DNA from: Phormidium tenue FACHB-1052
GTDB taxonomy: Bacteria; Cyanobacteriota; Cyanobacteriia; Phormidesmidales; Phormidesmidaceae
Length of the DNA: 64,000 bases
Reading direction: 5' to 3'
Assembly (NCBI RefSeq): GCF_014696675.1
Contig: NZ_JACJQN010000013.1
Coordinates: 62,001-126,000, forward strand
Notes under the pieces: generated by a model
Database searches by the model: none
The model's input: the letters and a program-made list of their open reading frames with translations, nothing else
Told to the model about the DNA's origin: nothing
Shown here: positions 46,988 to 57,413 of the stretch, piece after piece
How positions within the stretch are numbered: position 1 is the first letter of the stretch
Layout of the letters: every line of letters begins with the position of its first letter
Made by a program: the position numbers and the translations under genes

Positions 46988-48352
46988 ATGGGACAAACAC
47001 CGGCAACACCAGCCACTGGCGGCACGGTGGCCATTCGTGGAGCGCTGTTAGACTGCATAGCCGATCCCTTTTACGTCCCTGAAGCTCAGGCTATGCGGTA
47101 TATCCCCGATGGGCTGCTAGTGGTGCAGGATGGTCACATTGCAGCCCTAGGCCCCTACGAGGAGATATCCCCGACTCTAGGCGACATCCCCATCAGCAAC
47201 TACACCGGCAAGCTAATTACCCCCGGCTTTATCGACACCCACATCCATTACCCCCAAACGGGCATGATGGCCGCCTACGGCGAGCAGCTGTTGGAGTGGC
47301 TAAATCGCTACACCTTCCCGATCGAGGGCAAGTTTGCGGATGCGGCCTATGCTCGCACGGTGGCCGAGCTGTTTCTAGAGGAGCTGTTAAAAAATGGCAC
47401 CACCACGGCTCTGGTGTTTGCGGCGGTGTTTCCGGCCTCGGTGGATGCATTTTTTGAAGTTGCCGAAGACCGAAACCTGCGCATGATCAGCGGCAAGGTG
47501 ATGATGGATCGCAACGCCCCTGACTATCTTTGCGATACGGCTCAGTCCTCCTACGATGAGTCGAAGGCGCTGATTGAGAAATGGCATGGGCGGGGGCGAC
47601 TGCTCTACGCCGTCACCCCACGGTTTGCGGGCACCTCTAGCGAAGCCCAGCTAAAGCTGGCGGCCCAGCTGCTGGATGAGTTTCCCGATGTTTACCTGCA
47701 CACCCACCTGTCAGAAAATATTAGTGAGGTGGCCTGGATCCAGGAGATGTTTCCCCAGTATTCGGGCTACTTGGATGTGTATGACCAAACGGGGCTGGTA
47801 AGGGCGCGATCGCTGTTTGCCCACGGCGTGCAGCTCACCGATGCCGAATTTCAGCGGCTCTCTGAGGCCAAGGCGGCAATTTCCTTCTGCCCCACCTCTA
47901 ACCTGTTTCTTGGCAGCGGCCTGTTTCGCATTGAGCAGGCCAAGAACCCTGCATATCCGGTCAAAGTGGGCTTAGGCACCGATGTGGGGGCAGGCACCAG
48001 CTTTTCGATGCTGCAAACCACCAACGAGGCCTACAAGGTGGCCCAGCTTCGGGGGCAAAAGCTTTCGGCCTTTAAGGCACTGTTTCTCGCCACTCTAGGC
48101 GGAGCTAGAGCGCTGTGCCTGGAAGACAAGCTGGGCAGCTTTGACCCCGGCAAGGAGGCCGACTTTGTAGTGCTCGACCCCCAGGCGACGCCGCTGCTGG
48201 CGCTGCGCAATCCAACAGGAATTCCTACCACCCTGGAGGAACTGGCGGATGTGCTGTTTTCGCTGGTAATTATGGGGGGCGATCGCGCCGTCACCGCCAC
48301 TTACATCATGGGAGAGCTAGCCTACAGCTCAGAATCCCCCTGCACTCCTTGA
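46988..48352 (+). CDS. guaD: Guanine deaminase
   Basis: 454 aa amidohydrolase. The metal ligands are FIDTHIHYPQ near residue 82, the HTHLSEN strand near 238, FAHGVQL near 275 and the Asp of LGTDVGAGTSFSMLQ near 325. Those sequences, together with MAAYGEQLLEWLNRYTFPIEG, are the guanine deaminase signature. It converts guanine to xanthine and ammonia. The 3' end overlaps the end of kaiC by 31 bases on the other strand. A purine salvage role next to a nucleoside-type importer 10 kb away is possible but they are not linked in an operon. Confidence 0.92.
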   Translation: MGQTPATPATGGTVAIRGALLDCIADPFYVPEAQAMRYIPDGLLVVQDGHIAALGPYEEISPTLGDIPISNYTGKLITPGFIDTHIHYPQTGMMAAYGEQLLEWLNRYTFPIEGKFADAAYARTVAELFLEELLKNGTTTALVFAAVFPASVDAFFEVAEDRNLRMISGKVMMDRNAPDYLCDTAQSSYDESKALIEKWHGRGRLLYAVTPRFAGTSSEAQLKLAAQLLDEFPDVYLHTHLSENISEVAWIQEMFPQYSGYLDVYDQTGLVRARSLFAHGVQLTDAEFQRLSEAKAAISFCPTSNLFLGSGLFRIEQAKNPAYPVKVGLGTDVGAGTSFSMLQTTNEAYKVAQLRGQKLSAFKALFLATLGGARALCLEDKLGSFDPGKEADFVVLDPQATPLLALRNPTGIPTTLEELADVLFSLVIMGGDRAVTATYIMGELAYSSESPCTP

Positions 48353-49878
48353 ATAATCCGCGATAGCTCGCTCTTTTCATCCACCGCAATCCGGGTGGGC
48401 GAACCACTGATGATCCGCTCCAGGTTGCGGAAGGAGTCTTTAATATCTGGCCCCTGGCTGTTGATCGTGTACTCGCGAATGCCCTTGTCGTGCCACGAGC
48501 CACGCATCTTAAACACGTTGATCGCCCGCGACAGCTCGCCCCGCACCTCCACATATTGCAGCATCAAAATCGTGTCGGTAATGGTCGAAATGTGCGACTC
48601 GGTAATCGAGTGCAGCCCCATAAACTGCTCGGTGGTGTTGGTGAAAAAGCCCGTGATCTCCTCCTGCTTGGCAAAGCCGGTTACGCCAATTACAAACTGC
48701 CGGAAGGAGTTGTTGCTGACGCCGCGATCGAGGGCCGAGAGCGAGTCGATCGCCACCCGAGACGGCTTAAACTGCGAAATCTCGGTTTTGATAATTTGCA
48801 GATGGTCTTCTAAGCCCGCCGACTCGGGGTAGGCGCAGATGATCTTCAAGAGCCCCTGCTCCTCCATCGCCTCAAAATCGACCCCCCAGGAGTAGGCGTT
48901 GCGGGAGAGCTGGGCGCGCGACTCTTCGTAGGCAAACAAAATCGCTCGTTCGCCGCTCTTGCAGCCGTCCACCAAAAACTTGCTGACCAGCAGGGTCTTG
49001 CCCGTACCCGTGGCTCCGGTGGCGAGAATAATCGAATCTTTGAAGAAGCCGCCGCCGCACATTTCGTCTAGCGTCGGCACCCCCGACGACACCCGCGTGT
49101 TAGACGATCGCTGGGTCAGCTGCATCGCCCCCAGCGGGAAGATATTGATGCCGCCGTTGGTGATGGTAAACGGGTACTCCCCCTTCATGTGGGTAGTGCC
49201 CCGCAGCTTGAGAATCTCCATGGTGCGGCGGCGGCGCTCCCCCTCCAGGGCGTTGCGCACAATCACCACATTGTCTGAGACAAACTCCTCAACGCCAAAG
49301 CGGGCCACCGGGCCATACTCATCCAGACGCTCGGTGGTCATCACCGTAGTCACGCCCATCAGCTTCAGACGGGCCACCAGGCGGAAGATTTCCCGCCGCA
49401 CCACCGAGGCCGCATCATACTGCTGAAACACCGCCGTCACCGAGTCGATCGAGACCCGCCGCGCCTTGTATTTACGGATGGCGTACTGAATGCGCTCAAT
49501 CAGCGCCGACAGGTCAAAGTTGCCCACCACGTCCTGGCCTTCGGGGTCGGGGGAGGCGTCAAGAATAAACAGCTTGCCGTCGTCCACGAGGCGCTGCAAG
49601 TCCCAGCCAAAGCTGTAGGCGTTTTGAATGATGTCTTCGGGCGATTCTTCGAAGGTGACAAATACCCCCGGCTCGTCAAACTCGGTGATGCCGTTGTAGA
49701 TAAACTGCACCGCAAACAGGGTCTTGCCGGTACCCGAGGTGCCACTTACCAGGGTCGAGCGCCCCGCCGGCATGCCCCCGTGACTGATGTCATCGAAACC
49801 TTCAATCAGAGTACGAATTTTTCGTACCCCAGCCGGGTGGGCGGAGGGCTGCAAATCAGTTTGGTCAGAATCTGTCAT
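48322..49878 (-). CDS. kaiC: Circadian clock protein KaiC
   Basis: 518 aa, two RecA-like domains. CI has Walker A GTSGTGKT (46-53) and the catalytic E77/E78. CII has GATGTGKT (288-295), E318/E319 and the phosphorylation sites S431 and T432 in ESHISTITDT. Numbering equals that of S. elongatus KaiC. The conserved RGSWHDKGIREY and a short C-terminal tail (A-loop/KaiA-binding region, DSFRNLERIISG) complete the protein. KaiC's daily phosphorylation cycle is the clock core. It is downstream of kaiB by 218 bases, long enough for a separate promoter. Its 3' end overlaps guaD tail to tail. Confidence 0.98.
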   Translation of the reverse strand: MTDSDQTDLQPSAHPAGVRKIRTLIEGFDDISHGGMPAGRSTLVSGTSGTGKTLFAVQFIYNGITEFDEPGVFVTFEESPEDIIQNAYSFGWDLQRLVDDGKLFILDASPDPEGQDVVGNFDLSALIERIQYAIRKYKARRVSIDSVTAVFQQYDAASVVRREIFRLVARLKLMGVTTVMTTERLDEYGPVARFGVEEFVSDNVVIVRNALEGERRRRTMEILKLRGTTHMKGEYPFTITNGGINIFPLGAMQLTQRSSNTRVSSGVPTLDEMCGGGFFKDSIILATGATGTGKTLLVSKFLVDGCKSGERAILFAYEESRAQLSRNAYSWGVDFEAMEEQGLLKIICAYPESAGLEDHLQIIKTEISQFKPSRVAIDSLSALDRGVSNNSFRQFVIGVTGFAKQEEITGFFTNTTEQFMGLHSITESHISTITDTILMLQYVEVRGELSRAINVFKMRGSWHDKGIREYTINSQGPDIKDSFRNLERIISGSPTRIAVDEKSELSRIIQGVQGDSEL

Positions 49879-50096: not shown

Positions 50097-50411
50097 CTAG
50101 CCATAGATGTCGTCTTCGCGCAGCTCATCGTAGAGCAGGTCGAGGCCAATCAGCACGCGCTCGCGATCCGACAGGTCGCCAATAATTTTGCGCACGGGCG
50201 GCGGCAGAATCTTGGCCAGGGTAGGGGTGGCCAAGATTTTGTCTTCCTCGGCTAGCTGAGGATTTTTCAGCACGTCGATCACCTTGAGGGCATAGACGCC
50301 CTGAAATTCTTCTTCCAGGATATTGTTGAGGGTTTTGAGGGCGCGAATGGAGTTGGGGGTATTGCCCGCGACGTAAAGCTTAAGGATGTAGGTCTTTTTG
50401 ATGGAGCTCAT
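50097..50411 (-). CDS. kaiB: Circadian clock protein KaiB
   Basis: The ATG at 50411, with AGAGGG upstream, gives 104 aa, the family size; a longer frame was rejected. The sequence [24 protein letters not shown] and [23 protein letters not shown] is nearly canonical. The acidic C-terminus [12 protein letters not shown] is typical. KaiB switches fold to bind phosphorylated KaiC at night and then sequesters KaiA. It lies 71 bases after the kaiA stop and 218 bases before kaiC. Confidence 0.98.
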
Positions 50412-50482
50412 AGAACCCTCTGGGCTAAGCAGGAACAAGCATGATTGTATCGAGAGATTTTGGGGCAAGGACGGCGATCGCC

Positions 50483-51364
50483 CTAGGGTTCACGGGGGAT
50501 CGATCGCCGGTACATTTCGCACAGGTGGGCAATGACGTCGATCAGGGTGAGGCGATAGTCCAGCAAGATCTCCTCACTGCGCCCCTCTAGTTTGAGCTGT
50601 TTTGAGAAGTGATCCATTAGCTCCATATGAATTTCAACAATCTGAGCCACAGAAATATCGGCCATGAACGCCTGATCGACAAAGTCGTCGATTAGCTGAT
50701 TGAGGTTGATTTTTGCATCCTTGGCAAAATAGCCCAAGACAATCGTGCGATAGTCGGTCTTGAGCTGACCCAAAAACGCCGCACGGTCATCGGGGCTCAT
50801 GTGGCGCAAAAAAGAGCTGGAGCTGCGTTTGTAATAGACGCCTAGGTAGCCTAATCGAGCTTTAAGTTTTTCTGTCAGGCGACGTTGCTGGGCGCTGAGA
50901 CTGTTAGAGAGACTGTCAGCATTGGCGGCGGCAGTTGGGGATGAAGCCTTAGGATTTGGCAGCCGTAAAAATCCCTCGATAGCGTTTTGAATGACTTGGT
51001 CAAGCTGGGGCAAGGCATCGACAGCGCGGTGCACTAGGGCTCCGGGGTAGGGTTCAGGCCCAATAATGGGTACCGCGTTAGTCTCAAGCGATGGGTCAGT
51101 GGTAGAGTTTGGCAGGTCGATTAGCACCACCACCGGCAGCATCAGTCCGAGCTGCATCAAGGCGGGACGCAGAGCCTGTCGCCAAACCTCGTCATCGACT
51201 ACCAAGCAATCGGGTAGATCGGGGCGACTCTGGAGCCAGTCAAGGGCATCGCCAAGCACAGCCGTTTGATGCACTGCGTAGCGGCTAGGATCCAGATCTA
51301 ACTCGGGATTTTGCTTGACCTGATCACCGTGGGTCAGGATACAAATTTGAAGAGGAGCAACCAA
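50483..51364 (-). CDS. kaiA: Circadian clock protein KaiA (full length, non-ATG start)
   Basis: No ATG exists near the expected N-terminus. A TTG at 51364 gives [14 protein letters not shown], which aligns with the S. elongatus start, so I use it (293 aa); a TTG at 51421 would add 19 residues. The N-terminal pseudo-receiver (to about 135) has [13 protein letters not shown] and [12 protein letters not shown] but no normal phospho-acceptor site. The C-terminal domain, [20 protein letters not shown] to [18 protein letters not shown], is highly conserved and dimerises and pulls on the KaiC A-loops. It is a long KaiA, not the truncated form of some filamentous cyanobacteria. Confidence 0.93.
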
Positions 51365-51556
51365 GGGGCGACAGGGGTAAGCGGAATATGAATGAGGCCT
51401 TGGACAACGTTCAGGGCACAACAGCCAGAGGCTATCTGGGCCAGAACGGATGACACCGGCCTAGGAGATATCAGGATATTGTCAATTGTAAAGGGTGGTT
51501 GCCAGAATACGGTCTGCCCCTTAAACCTGGAAGCAAACCCCTTGGGGAATAAGCCC

Positions 51557-53548
51557 ATGGCGCTGCCGCCCCTCGACCATGTTTTGAGCCCTGTTCCGGC
51601 CTACGGTTGGACGACTCCCCTGGGCAAAATTGCCTATGCCCTGGGGCAGTTAGGGGGTGATCTCCCCAGCCACATTGTGGTGGTCAACGACGAGCAGCAG
51701 CCCCTGGGGGCGATCGCCGTCGGGCAACTCTGGGCGATCAGCCACGGCACTTCGCGGCTGGGCGGGTCGGGGGAAACCGCTACCCTACAGTTGGCCGACT
51801 GCCAACCTTGGCTAAAACCCGTGGTTAAAATAATGGCCAGCGAGTGGGGCGATCGCGCGATCAGCACCAGACTTAGAGCCCTAGTCCTAAAAGCACCGGC
51901 TGGGGTCTGGGTCGGCATTGGCACCGACGGTCAGTACCTGGGGGTAATCAACCCCGTTCAGCTCGTGACCTGGCTAGCAGAGTGCGAAGCCGACTCTAAA
52001 TCAGAGCAAAAAACCGGCGATCGCCTTGACACACCGTCCTTGGAGTTAGGACAGCAGGCTTGGGTGCTTGAACTCAGCCACGCCCTCAAGACCCCTATGA
52101 CAACCCTGCTGGGGCTATCGACCCTGCTGCTTGACAGTCGGGTGGGGGTGCTCAGCGATCGCCAGTTTCGCTACGTCAGCCTGATGCGGCAGGCCATTCG
52201 CAAGCTAATGGGCCTCATCAACCTGCTGCTTGACTGGATGCGGCTAGAGACAGGCCAGCTCAGGCTGCTGCTCCAGCGGGTGTACCTTGAGCCCCTGGCC
52301 CAAGAGTTACTGCCTGGCTTCTTTAGCACCCAGCCTGAGGGCAGCGGGGCAGTGGCCATCTGGGCCGAAGACTTTACAGTGAGTTTAGCGATCGCAGAGG
52401 GGTGGGTGCAGGCCGATCCGCTGCGCTTGCGCCAAAGTCTTCACTATAGCCTGGGCTATCTAATCGCCTACGGCGCAACCCCCGGCGGGCTGGTGATCGA
52501 GCCCTGGGGGCCATGGCTAGGGATTACCCTATGGAGTTCAACGTTTATCGTTGACCCTGGCCCACCAATGGAAACGGCGATCGCCCCAGATGTCGAAGTT
52601 CAGCCGGTTCCCCAATCGTTAGACGGGTTAGGGCTGGCCTTGGCCCGTCGCTTCACCCAGCTCCAGGGCGGGGAACTCAGCAACTTGAGTGCGCCGAGCT
52701 GGGGTAGCCGCCTTACGCTGCTGCTGCCCCAGTTCGGGGCAACCGATAAGAGCGACACCACGCTAGTGCTGCTGGCCAGTGCTAGCCAATCCATCATTGA
52801 TCAGGTCTACGGCAACCTGCGGGACAGCCCCTACCGCCTAGCGGTGGCTCCCTGCTGCCAAACCCTAGCGGCCATGCAAACTCGTCTCGCCCCCCCCTGT
52901 ACGCTCATCCATTGGGAAGGGCTGGCCGATGCCCCGGCTGATCCGGCGGCTCAGATGGCTCTCCTCCAGCACCTAGAGATGCCTGGGGCAGTGGCCCTGC
53001 GGTCAGCTTTAGGGGATGCGGCGATCGCCACAACCCCTGAAACCACAACCCCTAACGCCGCAATACCAAAGATGCTATATCTAGAAACCCTGACGCAGAC
53101 ATTGCGGCCTACGCTAGATCAAATTTGCCGGGTGCCATCGCTGTCGCTGCCCCTCCCCGACGGGCTGACCATGCTTTTGCTGCGCCCATCGGGGGGGGGC
53201 AGAGCGCTACCTCCCCTGGTGTACACCTGGCTACAGCGCTACCACTGTCGCCTGTTGGAGGTAGACGATCTGCAACAGGCCAGCCTGCTGAGCCGGGTCT
53301 GGCAACCTAAGGCCGTAATTTTAGACCGGGAGATACCGATCGCGACCTCCTATCTCCAAGCGCTGGCCCGCCATCCAGACCTGGCCCGCCTGCCCCTGAT
53401 TGCCCTGACGCCCCTGGCCGAGCAGGACACCGCCGCCCTGGGGCTATCCCTGGTGCTCTGCCCAGAGGTGCTGACCCAGCCGCCCGCCCAGGCGGTGGTG
53501 AGCCTCATGCGGGCGATCGCTCAGCACCATCCGGCCTCTAACGATTGA
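51557..53548 (+). CDS. CBS-histidine kinase-like protein with degenerate domains, divergent from kaiA
   Basis: The ATG at 51557 gives 663 aa. Residues 1-140 form a CBS-pair-like region (IVVVNDEQQPLGAIAVGQLW and WVGIGTDGQYLGVINPVQLV). A HisKA region has phospho-acceptor H175 in ELSHALKTP. The ATPase domain is eroded: the N-box reads RQSLHYSLGYLIAYG without the Asn and the G1 region reads VDPGPP, while the G2 box GLGLALARRFTQLQGGEL is intact. The C-terminal 230 residues contain two receiver-like folds; the second has an Asp in AVILDREIP but lacks the acidic pair. CikA, a known clock input kinase, also has a pseudo-receiver. A clock-linked role is an inference from position. Confidence 0.7.
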   Translation: MALPPLDHVLSPVPAYGWTTPLGKIAYALGQLGGDLPSHIVVVNDEQQPLGAIAVGQLWAISHGTSRLGGSGETATLQLADCQPWLKPVVKIMASEWGDRAISTRLRALVLKAPAGVWVGIGTDGQYLGVINPVQLVTWLAECEADSKSEQKTGDRLDTPSLELGQQAWVLELSHALKTPMTTLLGLSTLLLDSRVGVLSDRQFRYVSLMRQAIRKLMGLINLLLDWMRLETGQLRLLLQRVYLEPLAQELLPGFFSTQPEGSGAVAIWAEDFTVSLAIAEGWVQADPLRLRQSLHYSLGYLIAYGATPGGLVIEPWGPWLGITLWSSTFIVDPGPPMETAIAPDVEVQPVPQSLDGLGLALARRFTQLQGGELSNLSAPSWGSRLTLLLPQFGATDKSDTTLVLLASASQSIIDQVYGNLRDSPYRLAVAPCCQTLAAMQTRLAPPCTLIHWEGLADAPADPAAQMALLQHLEMPGAVALRSALGDAAIATTPETTTPNAAIPKMLYLETLTQTLRPTLDQICRVPSLSLPLPDGLTMLLLRPSGGGRALPPLVYTWLQRYHCRLLEVDDLQQASLLSRVWQPKAVILDREIPIATSYLQALARHPDLARLPLIALTPLAEQDTAALGLSLVLCPEVLTQPPAQAVVSLMRAIAQHHPASND

Positions 53549-53684: not shown

Positions 53685-56600
53685 ATGCACGAGCCTGAGA
53701 TCCATCGCGTTAACTCCGTAGTTTCTCCTCCATCGGTCGGCTTTTTCGCATCCAACTCCGCCCTCTACTGGCTTACCCTGGCACTGCTGAACTCCCCCTA
53801 CGAGAATGGTCAAACTACTTTTCTAACGCAGCCCCTGGGCACAGCGGCCCCTCAGCGGCTCATCGATGTGATGCCAGGCATTGTGTTTCAAGCCGATGGC
53901 GATACTGGCTGGTCCATGCGCTACCTCAGCGCTGGCTGTCACCCCCTGACCGGGTATCAGCCCGAGGAGCTGCTCAGCCCAGACTACCCAGCGTCGTACA
54001 ACACCATTACCCACGTCGCCGATCTTCCCCGAGTTTTGGCCAAAATTCAGCAGGCAGTCAACCTAGGTCAAGCCTATGAGGTGGAGTATCGCATCCACAC
54101 TCGCAGTGGCGAGGAAAAATGGGTTTGGGAAAAGGGATCGCCCACCGTCAATAGCCAAGGCCAGATCAACGGCATTGAGGGATTTATTACCGACATCACC
54201 CCCCTGAAACAGTCGGAGGCGGCCCTGCGCCAGGCGGAACAGGCCCTAAAAGCGCGGGAAGATTTGCTGGAGCTGGTGCTAGACAGCATTCCCCAATCTC
54301 TGTTTTGGAAAGACAGTCAGGGACGCTACCTGGGCTGCAACCAGGCCTTTGCCACGGCTATGGGGCTGTCATCACCCGCCGATATCGTGGGGAGCACCGA
54401 CACCGCTCTGCCCCGCCTAAACGCAGAGGAAGCCGCCTACCGAGCCGCTCGCGATCGCCTGGTCATGACTGAGGGCGTCGCCGATCTCCGGGCCATTGAG
54501 CCCCAAACCTACCCCAACGGTCATCAGGGCTGGATCGACTGTAGCCGCCTGCCCATGCGCGATGCCGATGGCACTGTGATAGGAGTGCTCTGCACCTTTG
54601 AGGATGTAACCGCGCAAATTGCTTCCCAGCAGACCCTCAAACGGCGAGAACAGACCCTGGCGACCCTGGCTGAGATTCAGCGCCTGCTGCTGGCTTGGCA
54701 GTGGGATTGGCAAGGGCCTTCTATTTTGGCGATTTTTGCGGCACTAGGAGAGCTGGTGGGTGCCAGTCGGGTCTATTACTATGAGCTGCAAGGCAGCCAG
54801 GGTGAACCCCAGTTTTTGCGCCAGCGGATAGAGTGGTCGGCCCCAGGCATTGGGTCTACCGCTGGCGACCCCCGCTTTCAAACCCTGCCTTTAGAGCCTT
54901 TTAGCGATTGGCATGCCCAGCTGCGCCAACAGCAGACCATCAACCAGCTAGAATCAGACTTTTCTGACCTCCAGCGCCAGCTGCTGGGCGGCCCGCCGAG
55001 CAATGTGAAGTCGATTCTGCTGCTGCCCCTGACCCTGCAAAACCGGCTGCAAGGGGTGATGGGATTTAGCAACTGCATTGCCCCTCACCCCTGGGCCGAG
55101 GCCGACATTGACCTCCTCCAGGTGGTAACCGCTGACCTGGCCCTGGCCCTAGGGCGTCGCCATACCGAGCTGTCGCTAAAGCAGGCTGAGCTGAAATATC
55201 GCAGCATGTTTGAGAATGCCGTTGAGGGCATGTTTCAGAGTACGCCCGAGGGACAGTATCTAACCGTAAACTCCATGCTAGCTAGGCTTTATGGTTATGA
55301 ATCACCCCAGGATTTGATGCAGACCCTGACCAATATTAACCAGCAGCTCTACGTGCAGCCTGGCCGCCGCCAGGAGTTTACCGAGCTGATTCAGGCCGGG
55401 GGAGCGGTGCTGGGGTTTGAGTCTGAGGTCTACCGCAAGGACGGGGCCATCATTTGGATTGCGGAGTCGGCGCGGGCGATCTATGACGATCGCAACACAC
55501 TCATCGGCTACGAGGGCACCGTCGAAGACATTACCGATCGCAAGCGGGGAGAGGCGGCTATTTTGCGCCGCGATCGCCTGCTGCAAGGGGTGGCCGAGGC
55601 CAGCCAGTGCTTGCTTACCACCGCCGACATGCACCAAGCCATTCCCCAAGTGCTGGCCCGCTTAGGGGATGCGGCTACCGCCGATCGCGCCTACGTCTAT
55701 ACCCACCACCCCCAATCGATCACGGGGGAACCGGCCATGACCCTGCGCTACGAGTGGACTACTCCAGCCACGGCTCCCGGCATCGACCAGCCTCACTGGC
55801 AAGACCAGAGCTACCGCGCCCTGGGCCTAGAGCGTTGGCACACCCTTTTGCAGCAGGGCCAATCGATCTGTGCCCTGACCCGCCACATGCCTTCCGCTGA
55901 GCAGGAGGTGTTGCTCAGAGACGGCATTTTGTCGATTTTGATGGTGCCCATTTTCATTGACGCTCACCTGTGGGGCTACATCGGCTTTGACGCCTGTCAG
56001 CAGGAGTGGGAGTGGAGCGCCAGCGACGAGTCAATTTTGGTGGCGGTGGCGGCCAGCCTGGGGGGTGCCCTCAAGCGTCAGCAGACCGAAGCTCAGATGT
56101 GCTACCAGGTCTACCACGACGCCCTCACCGGGCTGCCCAACCGCACCTTTTTTGACCAGCATCTGCCCCAGGCGATCGCCCGCACCAGCCAAAATGAGCA
56201 GATGCTGGCGGTGATTTTCTTAGACCTTGACCACTTCAAAACCATCAATGACACCCTCAGCCACGCCGTCGGCGATCTGCTATTGCAGCAAGTCACCCAG
56301 CGAATCAGCGCCGCCCTGCGGGTAGAAGATATTGTGGCCCGCTGGGGCGGCGACGAATTTACGCTGATTTTGCCTAACCTGACCACCGCCAGCGATGCCG
56401 CCAAAGTGGCCCGACGCATTGCCGACCAGCTCACGCCCCCCTTTTTGCTGCAAAACCACGAGCTGCATGTCACCGCTAGCCTTGGTATTGCCCTGTTTCC
56501 CCAAGACGGCCAAGACATGACCACCCTGCTGCAAAACGCCGATGCCGCCATGTATCGAGCCAAGCAGCAGGGCCGCAACAACTACCAGTTCTACACCCAG

Positions 56601-57413
56601 AGCCTCAGCACCGAGGCCGCCCAGCGACTCAAGCTAGAAACCTACCTACACCACGCCCTAAGCCGCGACGAGTTTGTGCTTTACTACCAACCCCAGGTAA
56701 ATGTTGTCACCGGGGTCGTGGTGCAGATGGAGGCCCTGCTGCGGTGGCAGCACCCCACCCTGGGGCTGGTGGCCCCAAACCAATTTATTCCCTTGGCAGA
56801 GGAAAATGGACTGATTGTGCCCATTGGCGAATGGGTAATGCGAACGGCCTGTACCCAAGTGATGGCCTGGCACCGGACGGGAATGCCCCTGGTCAACCTG
56901 GCGGTCAACCTATCAGCTCGGCAGCTTCAGCACCCCAATCTGGTCAACGTGGTCACCGCCGTGCTCAACGAAACCGGCCTGCCCCCTACTTACCTAGAGC
57001 TAGAAATTACTGAAACGGCGGCTATGGCCGATATGGCCGCCTCGATTGAGCGGCTGCGCGACCTGCGTCAGCTCGGCGTCAAAATCTCGATGGATGACTT
57101 TGGCACCGGCTACTCCTGCCTCAGCCACCTGAAGCAGTTTCCTCTCGACGGCATCAAGATCGATCGCGCCTTTGTCAAAGACCTGCCCCATAGCTCGGTT
57201 GACCAGGCCATGGTGAATGCGATTATTGCCATGGCCAAGGGGCTTTCCCTCAACCTAGTGGCCGAGGGGGTTGAGACCGCCGAGCAAACCCTGTGTCTCT
57301 ACGAACTGGGCTGCACCGAAATGCAGGGCTATCTGTTTGGCTATCCCCAGCCGGCGGCGAAAGCCGCCCCCTTTTTGCAGGCTAGCCATGGCCAAAAATG
57401 GCGGGTGACGTAG
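53685..57413 (+). CDS. PAS/GAF/GGDEF/EAL cyclic di-GMP signalling protein
   Basis: 1242 aa. In order: a PAS domain (about 55-185, VMPGIVFQADGDTGWSMRYLS), a PAS domain (190-310), a GAF-like domain (330-490), a PAS domain (505-625) and a second GAF domain (640-800). A GGDEF domain (815-975, RWGGDEF at 886-892) and an EAL domain (985-1235, MEALLRW with EAL at 1016-1018) follow. The GGDEF and EAL signatures are intact, so it could both make and degrade cyclic di-GMP. Neither GAF domain shows an obvious bilin-binding Cys-His. It follows the kinase-like gene by 136 bases on the same strand. Confidence 0.88.
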   Translation: MHEPEIHRVNSVVSPPSVGFFASNSALYWLTLALLNSPYENGQTTFLTQPLGTAAPQRLIDVMPGIVFQADGDTGWSMRYLSAGCHPLTGYQPEELLSPDYPASYNTITHVADLPRVLAKIQQAVNLGQAYEVEYRIHTRSGEEKWVWEKGSPTVNSQGQINGIEGFITDITPLKQSEAALRQAEQALKAREDLLELVLDSIPQSLFWKDSQGRYLGCNQAFATAMGLSSPADIVGSTDTALPRLNAEEAAYRAARDRLVMTEGVADLRAIEPQTYPNGHQGWIDCSRLPMRDADGTVIGVLCTFEDVTAQIASQQTLKRREQTLATLAEIQRLLLAWQWDWQGPSILAIFAALGELVGASRVYYYELQGSQGEPQFLRQRIEWSAPGIGSTAGDPRFQTLPLEPFSDWHAQLRQQQTINQLESDFSDLQRQLLGGPPSNVKSILLLPLTLQNRLQGVMGFSNCIAPHPWAEADIDLLQVVTADLALALGRRHTELSLKQAELKYRSMFENAVEGMFQSTPEGQYLTVNSMLARLYGYESPQDLMQTLTNINQQLYVQPGRRQEFTELIQAGGAVLGFESEVYRKDGAIIWIAESARAIYDDRNTLIGYEGTVEDITDRKRGEAAILRRDRLLQGVAEASQCLLTTADMHQAIPQVLARLGDAATADRAYVYTHHPQSITGEPAMTLRYEWTTPATAPGIDQPHWQDQSYRALGLERWHTLLQQGQSICALTRHMPSAEQEVLLRDGILSILMVPIFIDAHLWGYIGFDACQQEWEWSASDESILVAVAASLGGALKRQQTEAQMCYQVYHDALTGLPNRTFFDQHLPQAIARTSQNEQMLAVIFLDLDHFKTINDTLSHAVGDLLLQQVTQRISAALRVEDIVARWGGDEFTLILPNLTTASDAAKVARRIADQLTPPFLLQNHELHVTASLGIALFPQDGQDMTTLLQNADAAMYRAKQQGRNNYQFYTQSLSTEAAQRLKLETYLHHALSRDEFVLYYQPQVNVVTGVVVQMEALLRWQHPTLGLVAPNQFIPLAEENGLIVPIGEWVMRTACTQVMAWHRTGMPLVNLAVNLSARQLQHPNLVNVVTAVLNETGLPPTYLELEITETAAMADMAASIERLRDLRQLGVKISMDDFGTGYSCLSHLKQFPLDGIKIDRAFVKDLPHSSVDQAMVNAIIAMAKGLSLNLVAEGVETAEQTLCLYELGCTEMQGYLFGYPQPAAKAAPFLQASHGQKWRVT

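Follow-up and report, generated by a model that had tools for sequence, protein, structure and literature searches.

A kaiA-divergent family of histidine-kinase-like proteins in cyanobacteria with a possible role in the Kai clock

The window analysed here, which is the whole stretch of 64,000 nucleotides, contains a kai locus in which kaiA, followed by kaiB and kaiC, lies on the opposite strand to a gene for a histidine-kinase-like protein (Table 1). The start of this gene was placed at a conserved ATG (51557, MALPPLDH). The frame is also open farther upstream, and an in-frame stop just 5′ of the equivalent ATG in several homologs supports the chosen start. The probable start of kaiA is the TTG at 51364, with the ORF open to 51421; if this start is correct, the spacing between the two divergent genes is 192 bp.

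Table 1. Coordinates of the genes, the intergenic element and the protein domains at the locus.
Feature	Position	Strand	Description
kaiC	48322..49878	−	TIGR02655, 1017.9 bits
kaiB	50097..50468 (ORF coordinates)	−	NCBIfam KaiB, 2.2e-61
kaiA	50483..51364	−	Pfam KaiA C-terminal, 4.2e-60; KaiA_N, 1.2e-15
Conserved 30-bp intergenic element	51472..51501	.	CAGGATATTGTCAATTGTAAAGGGTGGTTG; region shared by kaiA and the kinase-like gene
Histidine-kinase-like gene, divergent from kaiA	51557..53548	+	663 aa
CBS pair, residues 1–145	51557..51991	+	Family profile; AlphaFold2 secondary structure fits two CBS repeats
DHp/HisKA domain, residues 166–250	52052..52306	+	His175, Thr179 at H+4, Ala at H+1
Degenerate ATPase domain, residues 251–394	52307..52738	+	N-box Asn and G1 Asp missing; GLGL and G3-like end kept
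Pseudo-receiver 1, residues 403–535	52763..53161	+	AlphaFold2 (high core pLDDT), VIA-align, family profile
Pseudo-receiver 2, residues 536–657	53162..53527	+	Receiver strand-helix order in AlphaFold2 model
PAS-GAF-GGDEF-EAL protein gene	53685..57413	+	1242 aa; Pfam; directly 3′ of the kinase-like gene

The 30-bp element CAGGATATTGTCAATTGTAAAGGGTGGTTG carries 0 to 3 changes in most Nodosilinea loci. It is identical among close Nodosilinea, with drifting DNA on its flanks, and a shorter AATTGTAAGGG-like core was observed in deeper relatives (L042, L044 and L047). By eye, the element partially resembles an RpaB-type (HLR1) site.

When the protein was searched on its own, HisKA was the only domain above the Pfam cut-off (residues 172–233, E = 3.5e-9); HATPase_c scored 15.3 bits, below its cut-off. 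The H-box, SHALKTP, keeps His175 and the threonine at H+4, with Ala in place of the H+1 acid. The N-box reads SLHYSLGYLIAY in place of an NLLSNALKFT-type sequence, both Asn being lost, and G1 reads SSTF in place of DTGIG, with loss of the Asp. AlphaFold2, run with 35 family members, modelled the full chain at a mean pLDDT of 83.3 and the tail by itself at 87.0, and the tail was predicted as two receiver-like folds (pLDDT 87). Pseudo-receiver 1 aligned to known receivers with VIA-align Z-scores of up to 14.1, and pseudo-receiver 2 is a receiver fold in the model. The acidic pair and the conserved Lys are missing from both repeats; pseudo-receiver 2 retains an Asp where beta3 ends. Its beta2-alpha2 segment is conserved (residues 564–582, CRLLEVDDLQQASLLSRVW), and Q574, A575 and W582, just after beta2, are invariant in 62 of 62 representatives. 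The earlier note had read this protein as a HisKA pseudokinase with two receiver-like tails, at least one of them without phosphorylation residues. The Pfam match with His175, the loss of the N-box, G1 and H+1 acid residues, and the missing acidic pair and Lys in both tails bear out that description.

The same note had placed a CBS pair at the N-terminus and suggested that it senses adenylate charge. The N-terminus of this protein, searched alone, gave no CBS match and no other match. At the family level, the pair is real: Pfam CBS matched 17 of 18 aligned family N-termini, and the family profile matched CBS proteins in the PDB at 4.6e-17. Weak profile matches to AMPK gamma were also obtained, as would be expected if the pair sensed adenylate charge and relayed it to the clock. 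However, CBS pairs that bind adenylates hold the ribose through the Asp of an (S/T)xxD motif, and neither repeat has this Asp in the 18 aligned members, where G+6 is Q, R, S or a similar residue. Adenylate sensing is therefore doubtful. The CBS pair stands, and its proposed adenylate-sensing role in the clock is very unlikely.

The Nodosilinea protein belongs to a broad family and marks its degenerate extreme, a point missing from the earlier note. Most family members have an intact ATPase domain; the Nostocales and most others retain an NLLSNA-type N-box, a DTG-type G1 and HELKTP, and the kinase is presumably active in most members. The N-box is lost in Nodosilinea and its relatives, in Thermosynechococcus-like genomes and in two further genomes (G252 and G114). 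Among 62 representatives at <80% identity, the phospho-His was found in 62 of 62; H+1 was Glu in 45, Ala in 16 and Ser in one (acid lost in 17 of 62), and H+4 was Thr in 56, Ser in four and Asn in two. Independent losses of the N-box were considered and not adopted: parsimony needs two changes on the tree, and supported branches force just one.

Orthologs of about 35–81% identity occupy the same place throughout the genus, the DHp being the most conserved domain (84% identity). In six close relatives, dN/dS was 0.13 for the DHp, 0.18 for the ATPase domain and 0.26 to 0.29 for the CBS pair and both pseudo-receivers, indicating purifying selection on all domains. Because of these genus-wide orthologs and dN/dS values, a chance ORF is excluded. 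The degenerate ATPase motifs could be taken as signs of a decaying pseudogene or a gene being lost; this is already contradicted by the dN/dS values of all domains and by reading frames that stay open over their full length at almost every complete locus, and we regard it as practically untenable.

RetS, DivL and other atypical HisKA proteins were among the closest matches to the core in sequence and fold. RetS, DivL and similar proteins are not simple kinases and bind other kinases or regulators; RetS acts through another kinase. They differ from the present family in their sensors and lineages, and they have no CBS pair and no clock link. In the Nodosilinea ATPase domain, GLGL and a G3-like segment remain. 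Together with purifying selection, the invariant His175 and the presence of RetS among the best structural matches, these remnants would suit a protein in which phosphotransfer persists, either with nucleotide held by the remaining G2/G3 segments or with a partner kinase phosphorylating His175 in a hetero-dimer. We consider persistent phosphotransfer unlikely, since the genus has lost both N-box Asn together with the G1 Asp and the H+1 acid. As judged from these motifs, ATP binding is predicted to be lost in the Nodosilinea form. HrmK and other NCBIfam hybrid kinases matched in the kinase core and nowhere else, at 41.6 bits where the cut-off is 725, and these assignments were rejected.

The gene is present in 25 of 26 genomes of the genus. 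Divergent kaiA is adjacent in 24 of the 25 carriers, and the 25th copy lies on a 3.7-kb contig. In a sample of 291 genomes across the phylum, KaiA was found in 121 genomes, and a clear gap in the family-alignment scores set off 75 orthologs, of which 66 lay divergently on the KaiA contig, eight on other contigs and one in a genome without KaiA. Three candidates per genome were scored in this survey, so it undercounts orthologs. Four further kaiA-adjacent orthologs came from flank inspection (G219, G252, G114) and a direct search (G132, whose KaiA we take to be recognisable as Thermosynechococcus-type). In total, kaiA adjacency was recorded in at least 70 of the 79 genomes of this sample that carry an ortholog. 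At 80 named loci (Nostoc, Anabaena, Chlorogloeopsis and others), which overlap partly with the sample, divergent KaiA was found at 76. The position is kept over about twenty cyanobacterial families. KaiA and the kinase-like gene co-occurred strongly (Fisher's test, p about 1e-38, uncorrected for shared ancestry); G286, of the same genus as G132, entered this count as a positive without flank reading. The earlier note had stated beforehand that adjacency restricted to this genome would speak against its proposal; the adjacency extends across the phylum and, with the KaiA co-occurrence, upholds the suggested link to the clock locus.

Some kaiA-bearing lineages have no such gene, among them an S. 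elongatus-like genome (G044), in which a receiver protein and a truB-like gene occupy the corresponding place, and several others. The gene appears unlinked from kaiA in G199, G301 and G294 (family f29, genus g72) and in Tychonema (L106); KaiA was searched for and not detected in G294, where the kinase-like gene is present. The MAG REEB459 (L044) has a rearranged kai locus, with a KaiC match (10434-8884, − strand) beyond the kinase-like gene, on the side opposite to kaiAB.

Orthologs of CikA (G000:C15:42107-43903, 50% identity) and SasA (G000:C13:70114-71262) both lie elsewhere in the same genome. The kinase-like gene was thus rejected as an ortholog of either, and its product is a third kinase-type protein. 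Searches of the 663-aa protein detected no GAF domain at E up to 1 and no SasA-type N-terminal KaiB-like domain. SasA shares the HisKA kinase and has a Kai output role in known systems, and differs in carrying that N-terminal domain. CikA shares the HisKA kinase, a C-terminal pseudo-receiver without the phospho-Asp, a similar DHp and a clock link. In contrast to the present protein, which is kaiA-divergent and combines a CBS pair, a degenerate ATPase domain and two pseudo-receivers without a GAF domain, CikA carries a GAF domain and a single pseudo-receiver, and its gene lies away from the kai locus. With a canonical family DHp as query, CikA ranked first in two genomes: it scored 79.2 bits in G044, against 60.4 for the runner-up, and 73.4 bits in G132, against 68.5. 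In the genome studied here, a different kinase of 440 aa ranked first, and the nearest kinases include non-CikA ones. The comparison with CikA made in the earlier note is strengthened by the DHp results in these two small genomes and by the tail without phosphorylation residues.

The family profile matched the CikA pseudo-receiver 2j48 at 3.1e-5, and the CikA pseudo-receiver scored 33 bits against the pseudo-receiver 1 profile. We do not propose a CikA-specific origin of pseudo-receiver 1, since a genuine receiver also scores 44 bits against the whole-family profile. The tail also matched the fold of the KaiA N-terminal pseudo-receiver 5c5e (2.9e-4); receiver folds broadly match one another, and a KaiA-like origin was rejected on negligible sequence scores.

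In 80 carriers of the kinase-like gene, CikA matches reached the pseudo-receiver in 37 and ended near residue 620 in 24 (20 of them from family f28); 19 had none at E 1e-95. Eight of these 19 were searched again with all or most candidates scored, and the best scores were at most 257 bits versus at least 354 for the listed orthologs. In family f28 (Nostocales), the CikA matches stop near residue 620, that is, without the CikA pseudo-receiver. Genus g41 had no CikA ortholog at the threshold used.

The conserved neighbourhood can also be explained by shared promoter control, with the protein acting on another pathway as a clock-controlled sensor (clock output). Adjacency by itself is no proof of function, the strongly conserved 30-bp element could serve both genes, and CikA and SasA are both available in this genome; the KaiA linkage and co-occurrence over about twenty families and the CikA-like DHp in two small genomes argue against this explanation, which we consider possible though rather improbable. 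A role in the clock itself is favoured by the position of the gene, the co-occurrence with KaiA, selection, the phospho-His retained in every representative, the CikA-like DHp and the pseudo-receivers, and also by the carriers whose CikA is truncated before its pseudo-receiver or missing at the threshold used (24 and 19 of 80, respectively). Against it stand the kaiA lineages without the gene, the unlinked lineages and the non-CikA nearest DHp kinases in this genome. On the sequence evidence, there is an about even chance that the family consists of kaiA-linked, CikA-like clock input/output kinases, represented here by a kinase-dead phosphatase or scaffold whose target is a clock response regulator, probably RpaA. 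On genomic grounds we regard such a clock role as a balanced call, and each of its details as less probable. Since the gene is kaiA-adjacent over about twenty families and its product in this genus has a disabled kinase with signalling parts kept, it probably encodes an undescribed clock component.

According to this clock model, the sensor-kinase family would act alongside CikA and SasA, either as an input to the Kai clock or as a readout of it. In the Nodosilinea form, ATP-dependent autophosphorylation would be lost with the N-box, G1 and H+1 acid residues, and the kept Thr, Asn or Ser at H+4 may allow phosphatase activity or docking, as suggested by HisKA biology. With autokinase function apparently lost and the DHp still holding its His and the H+4 Thr on which HisKA phosphatases rely, the protein may dephosphorylate a clock response regulator, most likely RpaA, or serve as its docking scaffold. 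Phosphatase activity would then persist without ATPase activity. The CBS pair may supply a metabolic or ionic signal, probably not through canonical AMP/ATP binding, and the two pseudo-receivers may hold regulatory partners, such as a Kai protein, by analogy with CikA-KaiB. CikA is an RpaA phosphatase stimulated by fold-switched KaiB, and when the two proteins bind, the CikA pseudo-receiver pairs its beta2 strand with beta2 of KaiB (PMC6378743). This pairing and the position of the invariant residues after beta2 make a beta2-mediated contact in pseudo-receiver 2 a guess.

A broader scenario is tentative and, we think, on the unlikely side: an ancestral hybrid kinase with a CBS pair and two pseudo-receivers would serve as a third, kaiA-linked clock sensor that binds the Kai complex, controls RpaA and assumes pseudo-receiver functions wherever CikA is missing or has no such domain, and it would have turned into a kinase-dead phosphatase or scaffold, perhaps more than once, in Nodosilinea and Thermosynechococcus-like genomes. 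Such a sensor could have gone unnoticed because the S. elongatus type has no such gene.

The Anabaena neighbour of kaiA is presumably all2883; the one paper found to contain this tag concerns CRP sites. The open-access literature, to which our search was directed, yielded no description of the protein or of a conserved kaiA neighbour, and novelty is therefore provisional. In a study of kaiA evolution (PMC8113500), the words histidine kinase, synteny, upstream and neighbor are all missing. Few biochemical oscillators are understood as well as the Kai clock, and the input and output components known for it stem mostly from a single strain. A gene that lies divergently beside kaiA over about twenty families, also where kaiA is of the Thermosynechococcus type, is a direct candidate for a component still missing. 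The gene bears on clocks without an identified CikA-like sensor, as stated for Crocosphaera (PMC12265555), and on the factors behind the c-di-GMP clock shift (PMC13001216).

The GGDEF-EAL gene adjoins the kinase-like gene at 134–668 bp in the named Nodosilinea-type loci and not in the wider family. As c-di-GMP alters the S. elongatus clock via factors unidentified there (PMC13001216), this neighbour is worth a look and proves nothing. The top Foldseek match of the protein was the Caulobacter hybrid kinase ShkA (3.5e-14). In ShkA, two receiver-type domains likewise come after the kinase core, and the first of them is a c-di-GMP-binding pseudo-receiver; unlike the present protein, ShkA has an active kinase, a true second receiver and no CBS pair. 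The GGDEF-EAL neighbour here makes a c-di-GMP link worth considering, nothing more.

The domain layout also varies within the family. In the usual form, the kinase is often preceded by a longer N-terminal part, and longer members such as L029 (1080 aa) appeared, by eye in the alignment, to continue beyond pseudo-receiver 2 with another receiver-like tail.
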